Origin: a virus
Virus record (IMG/VR): IMGVR_UViG_3300038701_000196
Span: 1 to 30,918 of that record
Strand: one strand, 5' to 3'
Length of the DNA stretch: 30,918 bases
Notes under the pieces: model-generated
Told to the model about the DNA's origin: nothing
Seen by the model: the letters and a program-made list of their open reading frames with translations, nothing else
Database searches by the model: none
Shown: one piece after another, positions 222 to 24,929 of the stretch
Layout of the letters: every line of letters starts with the position of its first letter
Position numbering within the stretch: position 1 is the stretch's first letter
Program-made: the position numbers and the translations under genes

Positions 222-237
222 CGTCAAGGCCTTGACG
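222..237. promoter_or_regulatory. 16-bp perfect palindrome, possible operator
   Basis: CGTCAAGG is followed directly by its reverse complement CCTTGACG. It lies in the otherwise featureless leader (170-419) about 180 bases before the RNA ligase gene. The size and symmetry fit a dimeric repressor or activator site. No partner protein is identified, and the operator role is inferred from symmetry only. Confidence 0.4.
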
Positions 238-307
238 CATGTTTTTTGAGTTTGCCGACGTGATCGGTGATTCGGGCTGCCTAACCCCAACCCAAATTCC
301 CTATAGA

Positions 308-336
308 TTCCAGCATTGCCCTTTACCCCATATATT
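308..336 (+). promoter_or_regulatory. weak candidate promoter before RNA ligase gene
   Basis: TTCCAG (308-313) and TATATT (331-336) are separated by 17 bases. The -10 is good and the -35 poor. The site would give a leader of about 75 bases before the ATG at 420. The region is A/T-richer than the rest of the window. Confidence 0.25.
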
Positions 337-419
337 TTTCACAACATCCGCAAATTTCTCTTTACCTCACCACCATCTTCCGCTACCCCTGTCTCCACCT
401 GACACCAAGAGGTATTCGC

Positions 420-1682
420 ATGACATACACAGGAAAAGATATCCTCGCACTGGGTATTCAACCTGGGCCGCACATCCGCGACATGCTTGCTCGCGCAAAC
501 GCAACTGGCATCTGCACCTACGATGCGCTGTCCGATCTCCTCCCCCCACCGACAATTTCGCTTCAACCTGCAATGGGCTTCAGTGTGAACATTCACGCCG
601 AAACGGATGATGAGCGCGCCAATCTCAACGCTGTTCTGGAGACGATGCGTGAATTGACCAAGACGCCGGTTGTGGAGGCTGCGGCTGTGATGCCTGACGC
701 CTGCCCTGCTGGGCCTGTCGGGACGATCCCCGTGGGAGGGGTTGTGGCGTCCAAGCACGTTCATCCGGGTATGCACTCCGCGGATGTGTGCTGCTCGGTC
801 ATGGTGTCCACCTATGATGGTATCGGGCCGGACGAGTTGATGGAGCGTATTGCGGCGAACACGCACTTTGGTCCCGGAGGCAGGCCCGAGCACAAGATGC
901 GCGACGGGCTGCGTCGATTGGTTCTGGAAAACCCGTTCACCGAAGCGCACGAGGGTATCGCAGACTGGCATATGGGGACGCAGGGGGATGGTAATCACTT
1001 CTCTTTCATCGGAACTCTCAAATCTACGGGTCAGACAACGCTTGTGACGCACCACGGGTCGCGCGGTTTTGGGGCGCGGGTCTACAAGCACGGCATGAAG
1101 GTTGCGGAAAAATATCGACAGAAACTCTCGCCTGATACGCTCAAGCAGAACGCATGGATTCCCAACGATACGCAGGACTTCGCGGACTACATGGCCGCGC
1201 TCGACATTGTGGCGCGGTGGACGCAGGACAACCATGCGGTGATTCACGAGGCGGCTGGAGCGCAGCCACATTGCTTGATGTGGACAAAACACAACTTCGT
1301 GTTTGAGCGCGACGGGCTGCTCTACCATGCGAAAGGCTCAACGCCAGCATGGGGGGAGCGTGAGGCTATTCCGCTCAACATGGCTGAACCTGTGTTGATT
1401 GTGGAGGGGTGCGATAACCCAAATGCGCTTGGGTTCTGTCCTCATGGGGCTGGTCGCAACTATTCTAGGTCGGAGCACAAGCGGCGTGGTGGTGCGGACA
1501 TCGAGTCTGAGACGGTTGGGCTGGACGTGCGGTTCTGGTGTGGAAAGCCTGACGAGAGCGAGTTGCCGAGCGCCTACAAGAACGCTGCGTCAGTTCGCCG
1601 CGATATTGAGGCGTATGGTCTTGCAAAAGTTGTTGACGAGGTTCTGCCGTATGGTGCAATCATGGCAGGGGAATGGCGCTGA
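420..1682 (+). CDS. rtcB: RtcB-type RNA-splicing ligase
   Basis: A 420-residue protein of the RtcB family, which joins RNA 2',3'-cyclic phosphate or 3'-phosphate ends to 5'-hydroxyl ends using GTP and Mn2+. The family signatures appear in order: ADVCC with metal ligands D122 and C125 (about 119-126), GDGNHF with H193 (189-194), HHGSRGFG (211-218), HN at 291-292, the KGS motif (305-307), and CPHGAGR with H342, the expected guanylylated histidine. All key residues are present and the length is normal. The ATG at 420 follows AGAGG at good spacing. It stands alone before a tRNA gene, so repair of tRNAs cut by host anticodon nucleases is the likely role. That role is inferred; the ligase call is firm. 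Confidence 0.9.
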   Translation: MTYTGKDILALGIQPGPHIRDMLARANATGICTYDALSDLLPPPTISLQPAMGFSVNIHAETDDERANLNAVLETMRELTKTPVVEAAAVMPDACPAGPVGTIPVGGVVASKHVHPGMHSADVCCSVMVSTYDGIGPDELMERIAANTHFGPGGRPEHKMRDGLRRLVLENPFTEAHEGIADWHMGTQGDGNHFSFIGTLKSTGQTTLVTHHGSRGFGARVYKHGMKVAEKYRQKLSPDTLKQNAWIPNDTQDFADYMAALDIVARWTQDNHAVIHEAAGAQPHCLMWTKHNFVFERDGLLYHAKGSTPAWGEREAIPLNMAEPVLIVEGCDNPNALGFCPHGAGRNYSRSEHKRRGGADIESETVGLDVRFWCGKPDESELPSAYKNAASVRRDIEAYGLAKVVDEVLPYGAIMAGEWR

Positions 1683-1687
1683 TGGAA

Positions 1688-1706
1688 TCAGCAGAAGGTC
1701 TGCTGA
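1688..1706 (+). other. short perfect hairpin after RNA ligase gene
   Basis: TCAGCAGA, loop AGG, TCTGCTGA make an 8-bp perfect stem 6 bases after the ligase stop codon and 64 bases before the tRNA. There is no T-run, so it is not a standard rho-independent terminator. It could mark RNA processing or mRNA 3'-end protection. Confidence 0.45.
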
Positions 1707-1769
1707 CTCACAGCCGGAGTCGAGAAGTCAGCCGCCGTGGGGAGGGCGTTCCGGTATCCCCAACACTAC

Positions 1770-1847
1770 CTAGGTGTAGCTCAGTTTGCGTAGAGTGCTC
1801 GCCTTGGAAGGGAGAGGCCGCAGGTTCGAATCCTGCCACCCAGACCA
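1770..1847 (+). tRNA. tRNA, probably Pro (anticodon TGG), CCA encoded
   Basis: A 78-base cloverleaf with encoded CCA (1845-1847). The acceptor is CTAGGTG with CACCCAG (6 of 7 pairs, one A-C mismatch). The D-arm is GCTC/GAGT. The anticodon arm is CTCGC, loop CTTGGAA, GGGAG (4 of 5 pairs). The variable loop has 5 bases. The T-arm is GCAGG, loop TTCGAAT, CCTGC (perfect). Canonical numbering puts the anticodon at 1805-1807 = TGG (Pro). A one-base shift of the loop would read GGA (Ser), but Ser tRNAs need a long variable arm that is absent here. A37 is atypical for Pro, so the identity is less sure than the tRNA call. It lies downstream of rtcB. Confidence 0.75.
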
Positions 1848-1872: not shown

Positions 1873-2046
1873 ATGCCCAAGATCGTGAGGGTGTATGGTT
1901 ACGACGACAGTGTGACGGAGTATGCGGTTTATGACAGTTGGCCCGGACCTACGGTCACCTTCCTGCGTGGCTTCGTGGAGATTGAGGAGGGTGTGTTCTT
2001 GAACGCCAATGACATCAAGCGCATCGAGATTGTGGAGGAGGAATGA
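1873..2046 (+). CDS. small acidic protein of unknown function
   Basis: A 57-residue product, not recognised. It starts MPKIVRVYGYDD and is strongly acidic at the C-terminus (KRIEIVEEE). The ATG at 1873 has GAGGAG just upstream, which decides the start over the longer frame that runs back through the tRNA. Its stop overlaps the next start by 4 bases (ATGA). It is the first gene of the small-gene array after the tRNA. No transmembrane segment or motif is visible. Confidence 0.65.
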   Translation: MPKIVRVYGYDDSVTEYAVYDSWPGPTVTFLRGFVEIEEGVFLNANDIKRIEIVEEE

Positions 2047-2249
2047 GTTTCCTTGACGAATTGTCCTTGTGTGAGACTGGCGACGAGATCGTCTACCACA
2101 CGGGGTATCACTGCATCGACGTTTTGACGGAGCGGAAGGTTCCTGCTGCCAGAGAGGCGTGGGATGCGTATCTGCGGGGTGATGTGGTGCTGTATCAGCG
2201 CCGCGTCGGCCCTGCTCAACTCAACTACTGTGCGAAGGTGCTACGATGA
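2043..2249 (+). CDS. small protein of unknown function
   Basis: A 68-residue protein starting MSFLDELSLCETGDE, soluble in appearance, with two cysteines (C10, C24) and another near the end. The family is not recognised. It overlaps both neighbours by ATGA, which implies translational coupling, and GGAGGA lies just before its ATG. It is likely an early accessory gene by position only. Confidence 0.65.
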   Translation: MSFLDELSLCETGDEIVYHTGYHCIDVLTERKVPAAREAWDAYLRGDVVLYQRRVGPAQLNYCAKVLR

Positions 2250-2746: not shown

Positions 2747-3177
2747 CCAAGTGGGACACCCGATTCCTTGATCTGGCCGCGCACATTGCCGGTTGGTCAA
2801 AAGACCCGTCCAGCCAAGTCGGCGCTGTGCTGGTGAACCCGGACAGGCAGGTTGTGGGCATGGGCTACAACGGCTTTCCGCGTGGCACGAGCGACGACCC
2901 TGCGCTCTACGCGGATCGACCGACCAAGTATCTGCGCGTGGTCCATGCGGAGGTGAACGCGGTGTTGAACGCCACGGGGGCAACCCGTGGCGCGACGGCC
3001 TATGTGACGCATCCGTGCTGTGCGCAGTGCATGGCGCTGCTGATCCAGGCGGGTGTGTCCCGTATCGTGTGGAACGCCCCGGATGCGGGGATTGCAGATC
3101 GGCTGAGGGAGAGTTTCCAAGCTGCAAGTCTTATGGCCGCTGAGGCCGGTGTTGTTGTGGAGGAGAACCATGCCTAA
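2743..3177 (+). CDS. dCMP deaminase-like zinc enzyme
   Basis: A 144-residue member of the cytidine/deoxycytidylate deaminase superfamily, which converts dCMP to dUMP to feed dTMP synthesis. H68 and E70 (HAE) give one zinc ligand and the catalytic glutamate. C93 and C96 in HPCCAQC give the other ligands. The usual motif is HPPCxxC, so C92 replaces the second proline. The length is normal for the short phage and ComEB-type enzymes. It is coupled by ATGA to the membrane peptide before it and overlaps the next gene by 8 bases. Together with the P-loop kinase at 4432 it suggests a partial nucleotide-supply set. A deaminase acting on another base or nucleotide cannot be excluded. Confidence 0.85.
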   Translation: MTKWDTRFLDLAAHIAGWSKDPSSQVGAVLVNPDRQVVGMGYNGFPRGTSDDPALYADRPTKYLRVVHAEVNAVLNATGATRGATAYVTHPCCAQCMALLIQAGVSRIVWNAPDAGIADRLRESFQAASLMAAEAGVVVEENHA

Positions 3178-3343
3178 GATCGACATTGACTACGAGACGC
3201 TGGACGGCATCGTCAAAGCGGGCCTGAAGGACATGCTCAACACGATGATCGAGGGCTACCGCGAGGCGAAGCACGAGGTGGATCGAGAGGGCTACGCCAA
3301 AGACATCGCGGCGTTGGAGCATGTGTTGAGGCTTTACGAATGA
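3170..3343 (+). CDS. small helical protein of unknown function
   Basis: A 57-residue protein starting MPKIDIDYETLDGIVKAG. It is charged and predicted mostly helical. GGAGGAG precedes the ATG at 3170, which supports this start over an upstream one. It overlaps the deaminase end by 8 bases and couples to the next gene by ATGA. The family is not recognised. Confidence 0.6.
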   Translation: MPKIDIDYETLDGIVKAGLKDMLNTMIEGYREAKHEVDREGYAKDIAALEHVLRLYE

Positions 3344-3492
3344 TCGGCAAACGCACAGGCAACCGGGAGCGCGTCTACGAGATGACGATGCAGAACATCA
3401 GCCCGAAGATGATCGCCAAGAAGCTGGGCATCGCCCTGAACACGGTCTACGTCCATCAGCACCATCTGCGATTGCAGGGGCGCATCAAATGA
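3340..3492 (+). CDS. small helix-turn-helix protein
   Basis: A 50-residue basic protein. Residues 15-45 (SPKMIAKKLGIALNTVYVHQ and its flanks) form a clear helix-turn-helix of the sigma-70 region 4/LuxR type, with IAKKLG as the first helix and NTVYVHQHHLR as the recognition helix. It is probably a DNA-binding regulator or a minimal small-terminase-like protein. It is coupled by ATGA on both sides. It lies 1.5 kb upstream of the large terminase, which has no obvious small-subunit partner nearby. Confidence 0.65.
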   Translation: MIGKRTGNRERVYEMTMQNISPKMIAKKLGIALNTVYVHQHHLRLQGRIK

Positions 3493-3929
3493 CCCGCAAG
3501 CTATACGCATGGGATCGACAATCATTGCCCGTCGCTCTCCCCAGTAATCGACTACGAGGAAAATTTATCGCGGCTGATCGGTTGCCGGTTGAGGTCAGGG
3601 GAATTGCTGAGCGAGAACTTGATCGCGCGGCGAAAGCACCGGGGTGGAACCCAAAGATCATCCGACTGCGCCACGCGCTGCACATGATAGATGTTTGCGC
3701 AGACGGTCGCACGGGTGAACTGCACTCAGTCCGCGTGGTGCTTCTACAAGACCATCCGTTTCTGCGGGTTTTGGAGAGCCTCGGGAACGCGCCGAGGATT
3801 GTGAAGACGTTATACCGGAAAGAGACCAGAATGGCGCACGAACGTGCGCTGGAGGTGTGGGACGGCCTGCGCGCGTGGGAACGCGCGTGGGAATCATGGG
3901 CTAAATATATGGGCGCGCGCATCAAATGA
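3489..3929 (+). CDS. phage protein of unknown function
   Basis: A 146-residue basic protein starting MTRKLYAWDRQSLPVALPSN, with many Arg and Trp residues in the last third. No motif is recognised. Codon use at the start (CTATACGCA, AATTTATCG) is a little A/T-richer than its neighbours, so it may be a later arrival. Overlaps with both neighbours (ATGA) support it as a real gene. By position a small terminase subunit is conceivable, but I see no helix-turn-helix to back this. Confidence 0.6.
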   Translation: MTRKLYAWDRQSLPVALPSNRLRGKFIAADRLPVEVRGIAERELDRAAKAPGWNPKIIRLRHALHMIDVCADGRTGELHSVRVVLLQDHPFLRVLESLGNAPRIVKTLYRKETRMAHERALEVWDGLRAWERAWESWAKYMGARIK

Positions 3930-4105
3930 CCCTCGACGACAAGGACTGGTGTTCTGCTGCCTGCGTGGACGCGCTGGTGGAGAACCTGACCCTGAGCGCG
4001 CTGCAAGCGGCGCACGACGTGGCACAGACGCCCGAGGAGTTCTATTGGGCGGTGCAGGCCAGTATCATGTTGAAGGAGATGGCAAATGACATGGCAACCG
4101 ATTGA
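3926..4105 (+). CDS. small acidic protein of unknown function
   Basis: A 59-residue acidic, mostly helical protein starting MTLDDKDWCSAACVDALVEN. It has two cysteines (C9, C13), not enough for a zinc site alone. It starts by ATGA overlap with the gene before and overlaps the DUF551-like gene by 20 bases in another frame. It is not recognised. Confidence 0.55.
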   Translation: MTLDDKDWCSAACVDALVENLTLSALQAAHDVAQTPEEFYWAVQASIMLKEMANDMATD

Positions 4106-4457
4106 GACGGCCCCGAAGGACGGGACGAGTATCATGGTGTATGTGGGCACGCTGGAACCCGACTACGCCGTGGCGCACTGGAACGGCGACTTCTGGGACA
4201 TGTTGCCGGAAGAACTGGAGGCCGACGACTTCACACGAGCGTTCGGTCAGCCGACGCACTGGATGGCACTACCGAAGCCGCCTGTGGAGCACGACACTCG
4301 GCTGCACCCTGACGATGTGATTAGCATACTGTGCGATGCTGTTGCACCACACGGCTACGGCATTGAGTCGATCACGCTGACATGGCTGTCACCTCTGGTC
4401 AACAGCGGACCTATCAAGGTGACATATTCGAGTGAGCACCATGATCTCCCAGACTGA
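4086..4457 (+). CDS. DUF551-like phage protein
   Basis: A 123-residue protein whose first 65 residues match the DUF551 pattern common in phages: WQPIETAPKDGT near the N-terminus (3-14) and THWMALPKPP (57-66), with tryptophans and acidic residues between. The molecular function of the family is unknown. The second half (about 70-123) is not part of that pattern and starts at HDTRLHPDDV, so this looks like a DUF551 unit with an extra C-terminal segment. It overlaps the next gene by 26 bases. Confidence 0.7.
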   Translation: MTWQPIETAPKDGTSIMVYVGTLEPDYAVAHWNGDFWDMLPEELEADDFTRAFGQPTHWMALPKPPVEHDTRLHPDDVISILCDAVAPHGYGIESITLTWLSPLVNSGPIKVTYSSEHHDLPD

Positions 4458-4965
4458 CATCGACGCCTTTGCGCGGCCCAAGATTCTCATTCTCGGCTAC
4501 GGGCGGCACGGCAAGGATACAGTTGCCGAGATGCTGCACCGCAGTCACGGCTATCGGTTCATCTCGTCCAGCGAGTTCGTTGGGCGAGAGGTCATCTGGG
4601 AGAACTGGGGTAGGCTGCGCTATCCGACGTTCGAGGCCATGTTCGAGGACCGCCACAACTGGCGCAAACAGTGGATGGAGATGATCGCGCTTTACAACAC
4701 GCCCGACAAGACCCGCACAGCGCGCACCATGCTGGAGCGGGGCTATGACCTCTACGTCGGGATGCGGCGCATGGACGAGTTTCTGGCCTCTCGGCACCTG
4801 TTCGACCACATCGTCTGGGTGGACCGGTCCCAGCACCTGCCGCCCGAGACCGGCTCAATGGACATCACGCGCGAGAACGCCAAGCCAGACCGCATCATCG
4901 ACAACAACGGGACGTTGGCCGATCTGGAGCAAAACGTCATGGACTTCGCCCGCGCTATCGCGTAG
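4432..4965 (+). CDS. P-loop kinase, deoxynucleoside monophosphate kinase-like
   Basis: A 177-residue protein with a Walker A loop GYGRHGKDT (22-30, K28). The GKDT form is typical of phage dNMP kinases, which make dNDPs for DNA synthesis. R58, R96-R97 and the segment HIVWVDRS (124-131) fit the LID and core strands of that fold. It is shorter than the T4 enzyme (about 240 residues). The GTG at 4432 has AAGG 12 bases upstream. The ATG at 4441 gives a product three residues shorter and is an equally possible start. It overlaps the DUF551 gene, and a terminator follows at 4993. An adenylate kinase or other NMP kinase is the alternative. Confidence 0.75.
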   Translation: MSTMISQTDIDAFARPKILILGYGRHGKDTVAEMLHRSHGYRFISSSEFVGREVIWENWGRLRYPTFEAMFEDRHNWRKQWMEMIALYNTPDKTRTARTMLERGYDLYVGMRRMDEFLASRHLFDHIVWVDRSQHLPPETGSMDITRENAKPDRIIDNNGTLADLEQNVMDFARAIA

Positions 4966-4992
4966 GCTCCCCGCAGTCTTGCTCCTCAGACT

Positions 4993-5020
4993 GACCCCGC
5001 CTTTGCGCGGGGTCTTTTTT
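4993..5020 (+). terminator. rho-independent terminator
   Basis: GACCCCGC, loop CTTTGC, GCGGGGTC, then six T. The 8-bp GC-rich stem and T-run are textbook. It separates the small-gene/nucleotide module from the packaging module. The large terminase starts only 16 bases later. Confidence 0.85.
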
Positions 5021-5036
5021 CGTCTAGATTGGTCGC

Positions 5037-6527
5037 ATGTTACTGACACCCGAACAAATCCGCGAAGTTGGCCCCGAGGCCCTTCAGAAAATCCGCGCCG
5101 AACTGGCCAAGCGGAGTCTGAAGGAGTTTGTGCATCAGGCGTGGCCCATAGTGGAGCCGGGAACCCCGCTCGTCTGGGGCTGGCCGATGGATGCGATCTG
5201 CGAACATCTTGAGGCGGTTTCCAACGGAGAGATCAAGCGTCTACTCATCACGGTGCCGCCCGGCACTTCCAAGAGTCGATTGACTCGCGTTTTTTACCCG
5301 TGCTTCCAATGGGTTAGGGAGCCTCATCACAGGTTCATCAGCGCATCCTATCAGCTTGATCTCACGGTGCGGGACAATCTCGACGCGCGACGCATCGTGT
5401 CGTCTTCTTGGTATGGCGAGAACTTCGGAATTTCGTTGGCCGAGGACGACGGAGGCAAGGTTGGGTTCAGCTTGAATACCCTCGGGTCGCTCAAGGCTCT
5501 TACCGTTGGCGGCAAGACAACGGGCTTCCGTGGTGATACGTTCCTCGTTGATGACCCCTTGAACGTGCAAGACGGCAACTCCGATCTGCGTAGGTCTGAG
5601 GCGAACGAATGGTTCCGAGAAGCCGCCCAGTCGCGCCTGAATGATGTCAACAAATCGTCCATAATTGTCATCATGCAGCGCATCCACCAAGAGGATGTGG
5701 CGGCTGTGGCTATGGAGATGGGATATGAACACTTAAACATTCCAATGCGTTGGGATGAAACCATGCGCAAGACCACTTCGATTGGCTGGACGGACCCGCG
5801 CGCCAAAGAAGGTGAACTGATGTGGCCTGAGAGGTTCCCGAAGTGGTGGGTTGACCAGCAGGAAGACCCGGAAACCGGAATGGGGCCTTATGCGTTCGCA
5901 GCACAGATGCAGCAGACTCCGGTGCCGCGCAAGGGTGGACTGATTCAGGTCGAGAGTCTGAAATACGTTGATGAACTGCCACAAGAGCCGTTCATCAAGG
6001 TGCGAGCGTGGGACTTGGCGGGCAGCGAAGGCAAAGGAGCATATACCGTCGGCGTCCTTATGTGCTACGGGCAAGAGAGCAGACAGTTCTACATCGCAGA
6101 CGTGATCCGAAAACAGGTTGGCAGCGCGCGGGAACTCATTGAGCGCACGGCGGAGGCCGACGGTATCACCACCAAGATTGTGTTGCCACAAGACCCTGGA
6201 GCCGCAGGTAAAGTGGTGGTCAACGAGTTGCGCGCCATGTTGGCTGGGTTCAACACCAGAGCAGAAGCGCAGTCTGGCGACAAGGCAACCCGAGCGCGCC
6301 CCTTTGCAGACCAAGTGGAGATTGGGCGCGTCACTGTGGTCAAATCTGGCTGGACTAAGGACTACGTTGAGGAACTCAGGTTCTTCCCGCGCGGCAAATT
6401 CAAGGATCAGGTTGACGCCACAGCGTCGGCCTTCAACGAACTCGCGCCCCTCACGAGGAAGAACTCCAAAGCACCCATGCTGTCGGTCGTTGGCGAGCGA
6501 CACGAGAATGTTCACAAAGTTGCGTGA
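5037..6527 (+). CDS. terL: terminase large subunit
   Basis: A 496-residue packaging motor with an N-terminal ATPase and a C-terminal RNase H-like nuclease. The Walker A variant is VPPGTSKS (73-80), Walker B is FLVDDPL (169-175), preceded by GGKTTGFRGD (158-167). Nuclease-domain signatures are WDLAGS (325-330, D326), QDPGAAGK (385-392) and the C-terminal KDQVDATASAF (456-466, D457/D460). The length is normal for full TerL proteins. It pumps DNA through the portal encoded next. No small subunit is adjacent: the gene before it is a kinase and a terminator intervenes. The ATG at 5037 has only a weak ribosome site. The call is firm. Confidence 0.92.
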   Translation: MLLTPEQIREVGPEALQKIRAELAKRSLKEFVHQAWPIVEPGTPLVWGWPMDAICEHLEAVSNGEIKRLLITVPPGTSKSRLTRVFYPCFQWVREPHHRFISASYQLDLTVRDNLDARRIVSSSWYGENFGISLAEDDGGKVGFSLNTLGSLKALTVGGKTTGFRGDTFLVDDPLNVQDGNSDLRRSEANEWFREAAQSRLNDVNKSSIIVIMQRIHQEDVAAVAMEMGYEHLNIPMRWDETMRKTTSIGWTDPRAKEGELMWPERFPKWWVDQQEDPETGMGPYAFAAQMQQTPVPRKGGLIQVESLKYVDELPQEPFIKVRAWDLAGSEGKGAYTVGVLMCYGQESRQFYIADVIRKQVGSARELIERTAEADGITTKIVLPQDPGAAGKVVVNELRAMLAGFNTRAEAQSGDKATRARPFADQVEIGRVTVVKSGWTKDYVEELRFFPRGKFKDQVDATASAFNELAPLTRKNSKAPMLSVVGERHENVHKVA

Positions 6528-22047: not shown

Positions 22048-24929
22048 TGGCTTCGATCAATCAGATCAGCATTGATCTGACCTTCACTGGGCTGGACAAG
22101 ATTGAGCAGGCCACGAAAGCCTCGCGCCAGTTTCAGCGCGAAATCAGGAGCCTGATCCGAGAAGAAAAGGACGGTGCGCTCACGACTGCGCAATTTGCAA
22201 GTCGCGTCGGCGATCTCGCTGGTCGATTGCAAAAGACCACGGGGAGTTACGCAAAAGCTGCCAATGCGGTTTTCGAATACAAGAACCGCGTCCAGGAGGC
22301 TATTGCACAGGAAAACGCAATCCGCGAAGCGCGCGCTCAGGCCGCCGCAAACAAGGCTCTTGAAAAACAATACGCCAGAGAAGCGGCTGAACTGTTAAAG
22401 GCCCAGAAAGCATCGCAACAATACATCAACTCGATCACTATGTTGGAGCGAGCCAACAAGTCGGCTGAGGCGAGTGCGGACCTGTTTGTCCAACAACTTG
22501 ACCGAGTGGACGCCGCCAACCTGAAGGTTGCGCAGTCCTTTGGTGATGCCGTCCGCGCAGCGAACACCTATGAGACAGCCAACAAGTCGGCTGAGGCGAG
22601 TGCGGACCTGTTTGTCCAACAACTTGACCGAGTGGACGCCGCCAACCTGAAGGTTGCGCAGTCCTTTGGTGATGCCGTCCGCGCAGCGAACACCTATGAG
22701 ACAGCCAACAAGTCGGCCGAGGCGAGCGCAGAGATTTTCACTCGGGAACTCGCCAAGCAAGAGCAGCAGGCGATGGAGACGGCGCGCGCTCATCAGCAAG
22801 CCCTTCTCGCCTTGAGGGAAACCGCCCTTGCGAACAAATCTGCCGAGACCAGCGCGGAAGCATTTTCGCGCGAGATGGATCGGCTCCAAGCCAAGTTCAA
22901 TCCACTCTACGCCGCGTCCCAACGCTACGAGGCAGCACTTAATGAACTCAATCGCGCCAAGCAGTTGGGTGTTCTGAACGCTCGGCAATACGACGCCGCG
23001 CTGGAAGACCTGAACGCTCAACTTGCGATGGGCATGACGGGAATGAGCGGGTTCGGCGGGGCGGCGAACGCATCGTCTCGGGCGCTCAATCGATCCGGCG
23101 TCGTGATGCAGCAGACGGGCTATCAAGTCGGTGACTTCTTGGTGCAGGTGCAGAGCGGCACCAATGCTTTTGTTGCTTTCGGGCAACAGGCAACTCAGTT
23201 GGCCGGTCTGCTTACCCTGAGCATGAACCCGAAACTCGTGGCGCTCGGTGCTGCGCTCAGTATCGTCATCCCGCTGACGACTGCTATCGCTGCTGGCTTC
23301 ATGCGGACGAGGCAGGACTCTGACGCAGCAGCGGGGGGTGTTGAGAGTTTTGAAGATCGACTTCGTTCGGCTCGACAGACGATTGCAGACACAGCGCGCG
23401 AAATTGAGCGCATGAACCAAGGCTTTGCTACGACCGCAGAGCAGACTCTTGCGGAAAACGTCAGGCGCGCTCAAGACGAGGTTCGCCAAGCCGAATTGGC
23501 ACTGCAAGGTGCTACGCTTCGTGGAGATCGGGGTCGTGGTATCACCACTGCACAGGCGGAACGTGACCTTGAAGCCGCGAGAGAGTCCCTTCGCCTGAGC
23601 GAAGAGGAACTTCGAGTTGCGCGCGAGCGGACGCGAGAACAAGAGCGTCTCAACGCACTGCAAGACCGTCGCGCCTTCGTTGCCGAGCAAACGATGGAGT
23701 TGCAAAATCAAGTTAACCTGTATCGGGTAATCGCTCAGTTCGGTGAAGACTCGTCGCAGGCTGAAGCAGAACGCGCTCGCCAAGCGCGTGAAGCGTTCCA
23801 ACTTGAAGTGATGCGTGAGGGTATCTACGGCCAGCAACTCGCTGACCTCATGGCGCAATACGATGCGATGGAGGACGCAAGGCGAGAAGCCGAAGCGTTC
23901 GCCGCCGTGGACATGGCCGCAGGTGTCAATGCCGCTGCTGACGCCGCAGCGCGTCTTGCGGACAACCTTGCATTTGCCCGTAGCCTGTCCCCTGAGTTTC
24001 AGGCAAATGCAGTGCGCGCAGGTGTTGCGTCCGGTGCAATACCTCCGCAAGCACTACAAGACCTTCCGCAGACAGATGCGGAGCGAGCCTATCAAAGCCT
24101 TCTGGAAAACCGCAGAAGAGAAGCGGCGCGTGTTTCTTCCGGTTCTGGTGGTGGGCGCGGCGGAGCGGGTGGCCCTGACGCCTTCACCCAAGCCCAAGAG
24201 GCCATCAACCGCTTGCGGGCCAGTTACGATGAGCAGTTCGCGGCGGCGCAGCGTGTTGCGCAGGCTCAAGAGCAGGTCAACGAGGCGCTGCGTCTTGGTG
24301 TGATCGACGGCGATATGGCGATTCAGATCATGCGGGACTACGAAGCGTCCCTGCAAGATGTGCAGAATCCGATGCTCGACTTTGCCCAGAACGCCGCAAG
24401 GCAAATGGCAGACGCCTTCGTGTCTATCATTGACGGGAGCAAGTCCGCCTCTGACGCCTTCAAGGACATGGCGCGCGCCATCTTGGAGCAGGCGCTTCGC
24501 ATGGCGGTCATCAATCCGATCATGAACAGCATTTTCGGTGGGGTTGGCGGGTTCTCTCCGCTGCCATCCTTCTTCGCCAACGGCGCAGCCTTCAGCGGTG
24601 GGCGGGTTGTGCCGTTCGCCAGCGGGGGCGTCGTCACTGGACCCACCACCTTCCCGATGGCGGGCAACCAGACCGGCCTCATGGGCGAGGCTGGTCCAGA
24701 GGCCATCATGCCGCTCACACGCACCAAGGGCGGCAAACTGGGCGTTGTGGCCGAGGGTGGTGGGGGAGATAACATCACTGTTGAGAACCACTTCCATATC
24801 GCCGCCAACGGAGACGACAGCGTGAAGCGCATCATCGCCCAAGAGGCACCGAAAATCGCTGCACTCACGCAGCGGCAAATCGTGGATCAACGCCGTCGCG
24901 GCGGCGCAATGAAGGGTGCATTTGGATGA
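22047..24929 (+). CDS. tape measure protein
   Basis: A 960-residue tail length ruler. The N-terminal half is a long Ala/Gln/Glu-rich coiled coil with tandem repeats (see 22452-22703). About 350-420 holds the conserved segment VMQQTGYQVGDFLVQVQSG and a hydrophobic helix pair (MNPKLVALGAALSIVIPLTT). About 430-680 is a second charged coiled coil. The C-terminus has a glycine-rich GGRVVPFASGGVV, GEAGPEAIMPL and a closing basic tail. This is the normal order. About 1.5 angstrom per residue gives a tail of roughly 1.4 x 10^3 angstrom, a family rule of thumb. The start overlaps the chaperone stop. Confidence 0.9.
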   Translation: MASINQISIDLTFTGLDKIEQATKASRQFQREIRSLIREEKDGALTTAQFASRVGDLAGRLQKTTGSYAKAANAVFEYKNRVQEAIAQENAIREARAQAAANKALEKQYAREAAELLKAQKASQQYINSITMLERANKSAEASADLFVQQLDRVDAANLKVAQSFGDAVRAANTYETANKSAEASADLFVQQLDRVDAANLKVAQSFGDAVRAANTYETANKSAEASAEIFTRELAKQEQQAMETARAHQQALLALRETALANKSAETSAEAFSREMDRLQAKFNPLYAASQRYEAALNELNRAKQLGVLNARQYDAALEDLNAQLAMGMTGMSGFGGAANASSRALNRSGVVMQQTGYQVGDFLVQVQSGTNAFVAFGQQATQLAGLLTLSMNPKLVALGAALSIVIPLTTAIAAGFMRTRQDSDAAAGGVESFEDRLRSARQTIADTAREIERMNQGFATTAEQTLAENVRRAQDEVRQAELALQGATLRGDRGRGITTAQAERDLEAARESLRLSEEELRVARERTREQERLNALQDRRAFVAEQTMELQNQVNLYRVIAQFGEDSSQAEAERARQAREAFQLEVMREGIYGQQLADLMAQYDAMEDARREAEAFAAVDMAAGVNAAADAAARLADNLAFARSLSPEFQANAVRAGVASGAIPPQALQDLPQTDAERAYQSLLENRRREAARVSSGSGGGRGGAGGPDAFTQAQEAINRLRASYDEQFAAAQRVAQAQEQVNEALRLGVIDGDMAIQIMRDYEASLQDVQNPMLDFAQNAARQMADAFVSIIDGSKSASDAFKDMARAILEQALRMAVINPIMNSIFGGVGGFSPLPSFFANGAAFSGGRVVPFASGGVVTGPTTFPMAGNQTGLMGEAGPEAIMPLTRTKGGKLGVVAEGGGGDNITVENHFHIAANGDDSVKRIIAQEAPKIAALTQRQIVDQRRRGGAMKGAFG
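22452..22703 (+). repeat. exact 126-bp tandem duplication in tape measure gene
   Basis: Two adjacent copies (22452-22577 and 22578-22703) look identical at every base and encode the same 42-residue unit starting ANKSAEASADLFVQ. A third, diverged start (ANKSAEASAEIF) follows at 22704, and a fourth echo (ANKSAETSAEAF) occurs near 22832. The exact pair must be recent or kept by recombination. Confidence 0.9.

Follow-up and report, generated by a model that had tools for sequence, protein, structure and literature searches.

Organization of the rtcB-tRNA locus

The DNA analysed is the 30,918-base viral record IMGVR_UViG_3300038701_000196, whose whole length we call the window; the contig is probably a fragment of a phage genome. 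The locus under study comprises the following features:

230..414, plus strand: leader before rtcB, aligned by blastn with the phage contig G005 (186 columns, E 3.9e-8)
420..1682, plus strand: rtcB, a predicted RNA 3'-phosphate/2',3'-cyclic phosphate : 5'-OH ligase of 420 aa
1683..1769, plus strand: gap between rtcB and the tRNA, 87 bases from stop codon to tRNA
1770..1847, plus strand: tRNA-Pro(UGG) with encoded CCA, assigned from ARAGORN, Rfam RF00005, geometry and relatives
1873..2046, plus strand: small hypothetical gene after the tRNA, similar by eye to an open reading frame of the phage contig G028 (L157 6703-6936)
2043..2249, plus strand: first gene beyond the rtcB-tRNA slot that is kept in both syntenic relatives (56-59% identity)

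The rtcB reading frame opens with an ATG at 420, and its stop codon ends at 1682. Its product matches the Pfam RtcB family (E 3.2e-29; PF01139 at 102.9 bits, above the curated cut-off of 27) and, over residues 4-419, the PHROG tRNA splicing ligase family (E 7.7e-78). The six catalytic residues D122, C125, H193, H211, H291 and H342 correspond to D95, C98, H203, H234, H329 and H404, respectively, which bind metal and nucleotide in Pyrococcus horikoshii RtcB (PMC10630183). Across 49 sequences the cysteine and the four histidines are invariant, and D122 is present in 90% or more. The AlphaFold model, built from an alignment of the window and collection loci only, with three rows from annotated records left out, has a pLDDT of 93.1 and superposes on the GMP/Mn form of the P. 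horikoshii enzyme (4dwq) with a Z score of 36.6 and an rmsd of 2.8 over 363 residues. Profile score, metal- and nucleotide-binding residues and fold all place the protein in the RtcB 3'-5' RNA ligase family, confirming the complete RtcB-type ligase that a sequence-only reading had proposed here. That reading also held that RtcB is not rare in phages, and indeed 490 of 50,697 phage records matched. It is fairly probable, at the same confidence as the overall explanation given below, that the enzyme seals RNA breaks with 2',3'-cyclic phosphate and 5'-OH ends. A foreign character of the gene by composition was rejected (GC 58.2% versus 59.5% for the window).

The tRNA gene carries features of decay

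The sequence-only reading placed a tRNA with encoded CCA less than 90 bases after the ligase, which agrees with the 87-base gap and the CCA at 1845-1847. This is the single tRNA in the whole window, and it is no chance match, since it scores 52.7 bits against RF00005 with a gathering score of 29 (E 8.9e-9). No terminator-like site was found on the plus strand of the gap, and a promoter scan found none. The isotype Ser(GGA) called by ARAGORN was rejected as a register error. A tRNA-Ser is expected to have a long variable arm; here the variable loop has 5 bases. When the anticodon stem is shifted by one base, the geometry becomes canonical, with one base at position 26 and the 7-base loop CTTGGAA at 1803-1809, and the anticodon is TGG at 1805-1807. 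The pair C1-G72 and A73 are typical for bacterial tRNA-Pro. We therefore assign the gene to Pro(UGG) on its canonical geometry, these identity elements and its best database matches, all phage tRNA-Pro genes, the nearest being those of Microbacterium phage Big4 (86%) and Rhodobacter phage RcXuper (83%).

Three deviations separate the gene from a canonical tRNA-Pro(UGG) with fully paired stems and an intact D-loop GG. An A3-C70 mismatch (A1772-C1841) leaves six of seven acceptor pairs; C1789 is inserted between G18 and G19 of the D-loop, where GG is kept in 24 of 25 tRNA-Pro genes compared; and a G30xG40 mismatch (G1801xG1811) interrupts the anticodon stem. The cloverleaf also differs from the predicted minimum-energy fold. 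To judge from its sequence, the gene is probably decaying and losing function. tRNAs with mismatches can still function, and the gene stays well above the Rfam cut-off despite its defects. CCA, the codon best read by tRNA-Pro(UGG), is the rarest proline codon in the other genes of the window (29 of 319), so that no clear benefit to translation is apparent.

rtcB and the tRNA occupy a variable slot

Two phage contigs, G028 (55.8 kb) and G005 (13.3 kb), have a gene order in common with the window, with identities of 81-90% for the portal and 75-77% for PhoH in both and 89% for the capsid in G028. Neither RtcB nor any tRNA was found in these two contigs. The leader at 230..414 is ~70% identical to a stretch of G005 that lies directly before an unrelated gene, which is in turn followed by a homologue of the window gene at 2043-2249. 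We conclude that the stretch holding rtcB, the tRNA and the small gene that begins at 1873 is a variable slot.

In a rival reading, the tRNA would be a copy of the integration site (attP) or its trace, and rtcB adjoining cargo. Some rtcB-tRNA neighbours in other phages do look like integration sites: in Mesorhizobium phage Lo5R7ANS and in G053, G056 and G058, the tRNA next to rtcB, or the 3' fragment of one, has a tyrosine integrase no more than ~1.5 kb away, and it is this closeness of integrase and tRNA that makes them resemble attachment sites. For the window, however, we regard this origin as very unlikely, because its tRNA is complete at both ends, the scan of window genes showed no integrase, and the tyrosine integrase PF00589 is absent from G028 and G005. 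In G053 (3113-5132; L037) and G056 (851-2870; L040) the order is integrase, tRNA 3' fragment and rtcB, a likely attP. The annotation of Lo5R7ANS divides rtcB (L011 3016-4211) into two overlapping genes, and the ligase may be split or broken.

Cellular relatives and probable origin of the ligase

Members of the subfamily to which the window RtcB belongs are encoded on chromosomes of Rhizobium, Bosea, Mesorhizobium, Rhodobacteraceae, Aquimarina and other Bacteroidota. The tree places the window protein and its nearest relative (L002, 72% identity) with two alphaproteobacterial metagenome bins (support 0.998), and this group nests inside the alphaproteobacterial chromosomal set (support 0.862). 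Among 128 chromosomal loci of the subfamily, the neighbours of rtcB include RtcR (83 loci), TROVE/Ro60 (68), a WYL regulator (24), PrfH (9; for example in Flavobacteriaceae) and KptA (5), and the space between Ro60 and rtcB is taken up by arrays of Y RNAs, several of them scoring above the Rfam YrlA cut-off. Judged by this placement and context, the phage gene was probably acquired from an alphaproteobacterial RNA-repair operon. The two nearest relatives labelled chromosomal (L239 and L240) have neither RtcR nor Ro60 beside rtcB and may themselves be phage DNA. In another locus (L285 7179-9242), an RNA 2'-phosphotransferase (KptA/Tpt1) and RtcB lie within one open frame of 687 codons.

The window itself holds no RtcR-regulated RNA-repair operon with rtcR, rsr/Ro60 and Y RNA beside rtcB: no RtcR, no Ro60/TROVE and no YrlA above cut-off were found in it, 419 bases upstream of rtcB being covered, and the window genes scanned showed no RtcA. 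As the 30.9 kb contig is probably a fragment, RtcA, Rnl, Pnkp or further tRNAs may lie beyond its ends. The presence of YrlA in rtcB phages in general was rejected: in 93 records nothing scored above cut-off, and most of the weak matches fell among tRNA genes.

The same neighbourhoods bear on the substrate. RtcB2, which is also a 3'-5' RNA ligase, works with PrfH against a ribotoxin: the two protect Escherichia coli from colicin E3, a 16S rRNA cutter (PMC9223846). The nine PrfH neighbours in the subfamily would fit a window enzyme that mainly mends rRNA rather than tRNA. We think this quite unlikely, given that no PrfH was found in the window and that its RtcB branches among alphaproteobacterial relatives adjoining RtcR, Ro60 and Y RNAs instead of PrfH. 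Nor is the protein of the RtcB2 subfamily, scoring 42.8 bits against an NCBIfam cut-off of 271.8.

Pairing of rtcB with tRNA genes

We then asked whether rtcB and tRNA genes travel together in phages. The closest relative, L002, has no tRNA within 10 kb of rtcB, and the two tRNAs on its contig are about 23 kb away. No tRNA lies within 1 kb of rtcB in 69 of 75 distinct phage loci, and the remaining 6 compare with the 5.8 that the number of tRNAs in these loci would predict; in 500-base bins the excess is weak (6/144 versus 39/2213, p 0.053), and some of its cases are the attachment-site look-alikes described above. Among the rtcB contigs of 20-60 kb searched, a size band picked after the data were seen, 0 of 16 have a tRNA above cut-off, as against 5 of 10 PhoH-bearing contigs without RtcB, and a general rule that rtcB phages require their own tRNAs was rejected on this count. 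The two genes are thus not neighbours conserved in relatives, and these comparisons of sequence do not support ligase and tRNA as a fixed unit in phages. They largely show what the sequence-only reading had named as counter-evidence, namely that rtcB in related phages has no tRNA gene or only a distant one. Since the window tRNA has defects and most phage rtcB genes have no tRNA beside them, rtcB most likely does not need it: the tRNA is optional, though it may once have been useful.

Some phages nevertheless have tRNAs close to rtcB. In phage L082, the gene is flanked by Gln(UUG), 216 bases upstream, and Pro(UGG), 576 bases downstream, and in another viral contig (L223 1302-1455) two tRNA-Phe(GAA) genes directly precede it. 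The Cellulophaga phages phi38:1 and Calle_1 (L008 2828-2967 and L014 2828-2967) have a 140-base tRNA-like element whose end is 27 bases upstream of where rtcB starts. It comprises acceptor, D- and T-arms together with a 7-bp hairpin that bears GCCGAAG, and a long extra arm in which differences between the two phages mostly preserve pairing. It gives no Rfam YrlA match, and a TROVE gene is absent from both phages.

Of 124 distinct chromosomal loci, 21 have tRNA genes on the same strand as rtcB and no more than 1.5 kb from it. Asn(GUU), Gln(UUG), Pro(UGG) and Lys(UUU) together account for 30 of these 42 near tRNAs, compared with 18 of 74 tRNAs that are farther away or on the opposite strand (Fisher p 1.4e-6, uncorrected for shared ancestry and tested after the pattern was seen). 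The tRNA-bearing operons occur in Rhodobacteraceae and some Bacteroidota, and loci with this narrow set include L274, L303, L383, L384, L386, L392, L401, L404, L418 and L425; L274 has tRNA-Pro, -Asn and -Gln scattered among the YrlA copies that separate Ro60 from rtcB. No earlier report of such a set in rtc operons was found in the literature searched, which subscription papers mostly fall outside. The set lends weight to a role of the subfamily in tRNA repair and makes the Pro(UGG) of the window less arbitrary; if real, it indicates which tRNAs natural ribotoxins attack.

These operons, together with the flanking tRNAs of L082, speak for a dedicated pair in the window, in which RtcB mends cut tRNAs and tRNA-Pro(UGG) replaces, or serves as decoy for, the isoacceptor hit by an anticodon nuclease, the whole being a pared-down form of rtc operons in which RtcB is grouped with selected tRNAs. 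The window tRNA, however, has its three deviations and resembles phage tRNA-Pro genes (up to 86%) more than it does the operon copies (72-81%); the phage loci show no clear excess of adjacency, and the isotype contrast is post hoc. We therefore judge a dedicated pair unlikely. A small chance, lower again, goes to a stripped mobile RNA-repair operon, of which the ligase and a single replacement tRNA would be left in the phage; if such an operon with Y RNAs and Asn(GUU), Gln(UUG), Pro(UGG) and Lys(UUU) were real, ribotoxin-cut tRNAs would be both mended and replaced. Of the repair pair first suggested from the sequence, the repair half stands up better, with an intact RtcB whose cellular relatives lie in RtcR-regulated RNA-repair operons, some with Pro(UGG) tRNAs; the pairing is undercut by the phage loci, the degenerate tRNA and the syntenic relatives that have neither gene.

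Proposed role and comparison with known systems

The explanation we favour, and hold to be rather more probable than its negation, is an accessory rtcB in a variable slot, of alphaproteobacterial operon origin, that reseals cut translation RNAs, with the tRNA a separate, optional and decaying gene. It builds on the gene, its fold and catalytic residues, the slot, the subfamily, the operon context in cells and the tRNA defects; from these we infer RtcB activity, expression during infection, the substrate and a benefit to the phage. The accessory gene, probably taken up as described, sits behind the conserved leader at the start of a rightward gene run. Ribonucleases of the host or of rivals would cut translation RNAs during infection, leaving 2',3'-cyclic phosphate and 5'-OH ends, and the phage RtcB would reseal these host RNAs, tRNA first and 16S rRNA second. 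tRNA-Pro(UGG) would be no required partner. In T4, Pnkp and Rnl1 repair tRNA against PrrC by 5'-3' ATP-dependent sealing after end healing; the proposed end, phage-borne tRNA mending, is the same as for the window RtcB, but enzyme and chemistry are unrelated.

The tRNA-repair idea for phage RtcB is not new. In 2011 it was reported that, among Cluster K mycobacteriophages, RtcB is encoded only in the subcluster with a tRNA, and protection from host tRNA cleavage was proposed (PMC3203893). Like the window, Cluster K1 genomes combine rtcB with one tRNA, but theirs is a Trp near the left genome end, away from rtcB (PMC3203893). In our comparison, mycobacteriophage RtcBs are only ~26% identical to that of the window. 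A survey of 224 jumbo phages likewise described RtcB and other ligases as joining cleaved tRNAs (PMC7824862). The Salmonella rsr-yrlBA-rtcBA operon is switched on by tRNA fragments ending in cyclic phosphate (PMC7790460); it shares the ligase family with the window, and in the subfamily of the window RtcB many cellular loci likewise have Ro60, Y RNAs and RtcR next to rtcB, but the phage sequence covered by the contig shows only the ligase. A counter-argument to our explanation comes from Pseudomonas phage PAK_P3, whose plating is unchanged on deletion of host rtcB, a result that concerns the host gene and does not cover a phage-borne one (PMC4933390).

The role of RtcB in phages is little tested though the gene is common. 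Because the window RtcB belongs to a cellular subfamily whose gene neighbourhoods clearly point to RNA repair, the counter-defence idea can be tested with the ligase alone.

Two repeats were also observed in the window. Positions 1-161, at the extreme contig end, hold 12.5 copies of the 13-base unit GTCTCGCCCTTCG, either a real repeat or an end effect of assembly, and at 22451-22726, within the tape-measure gene, a 126-base unit is repeated 2.2 times with 99% identity.
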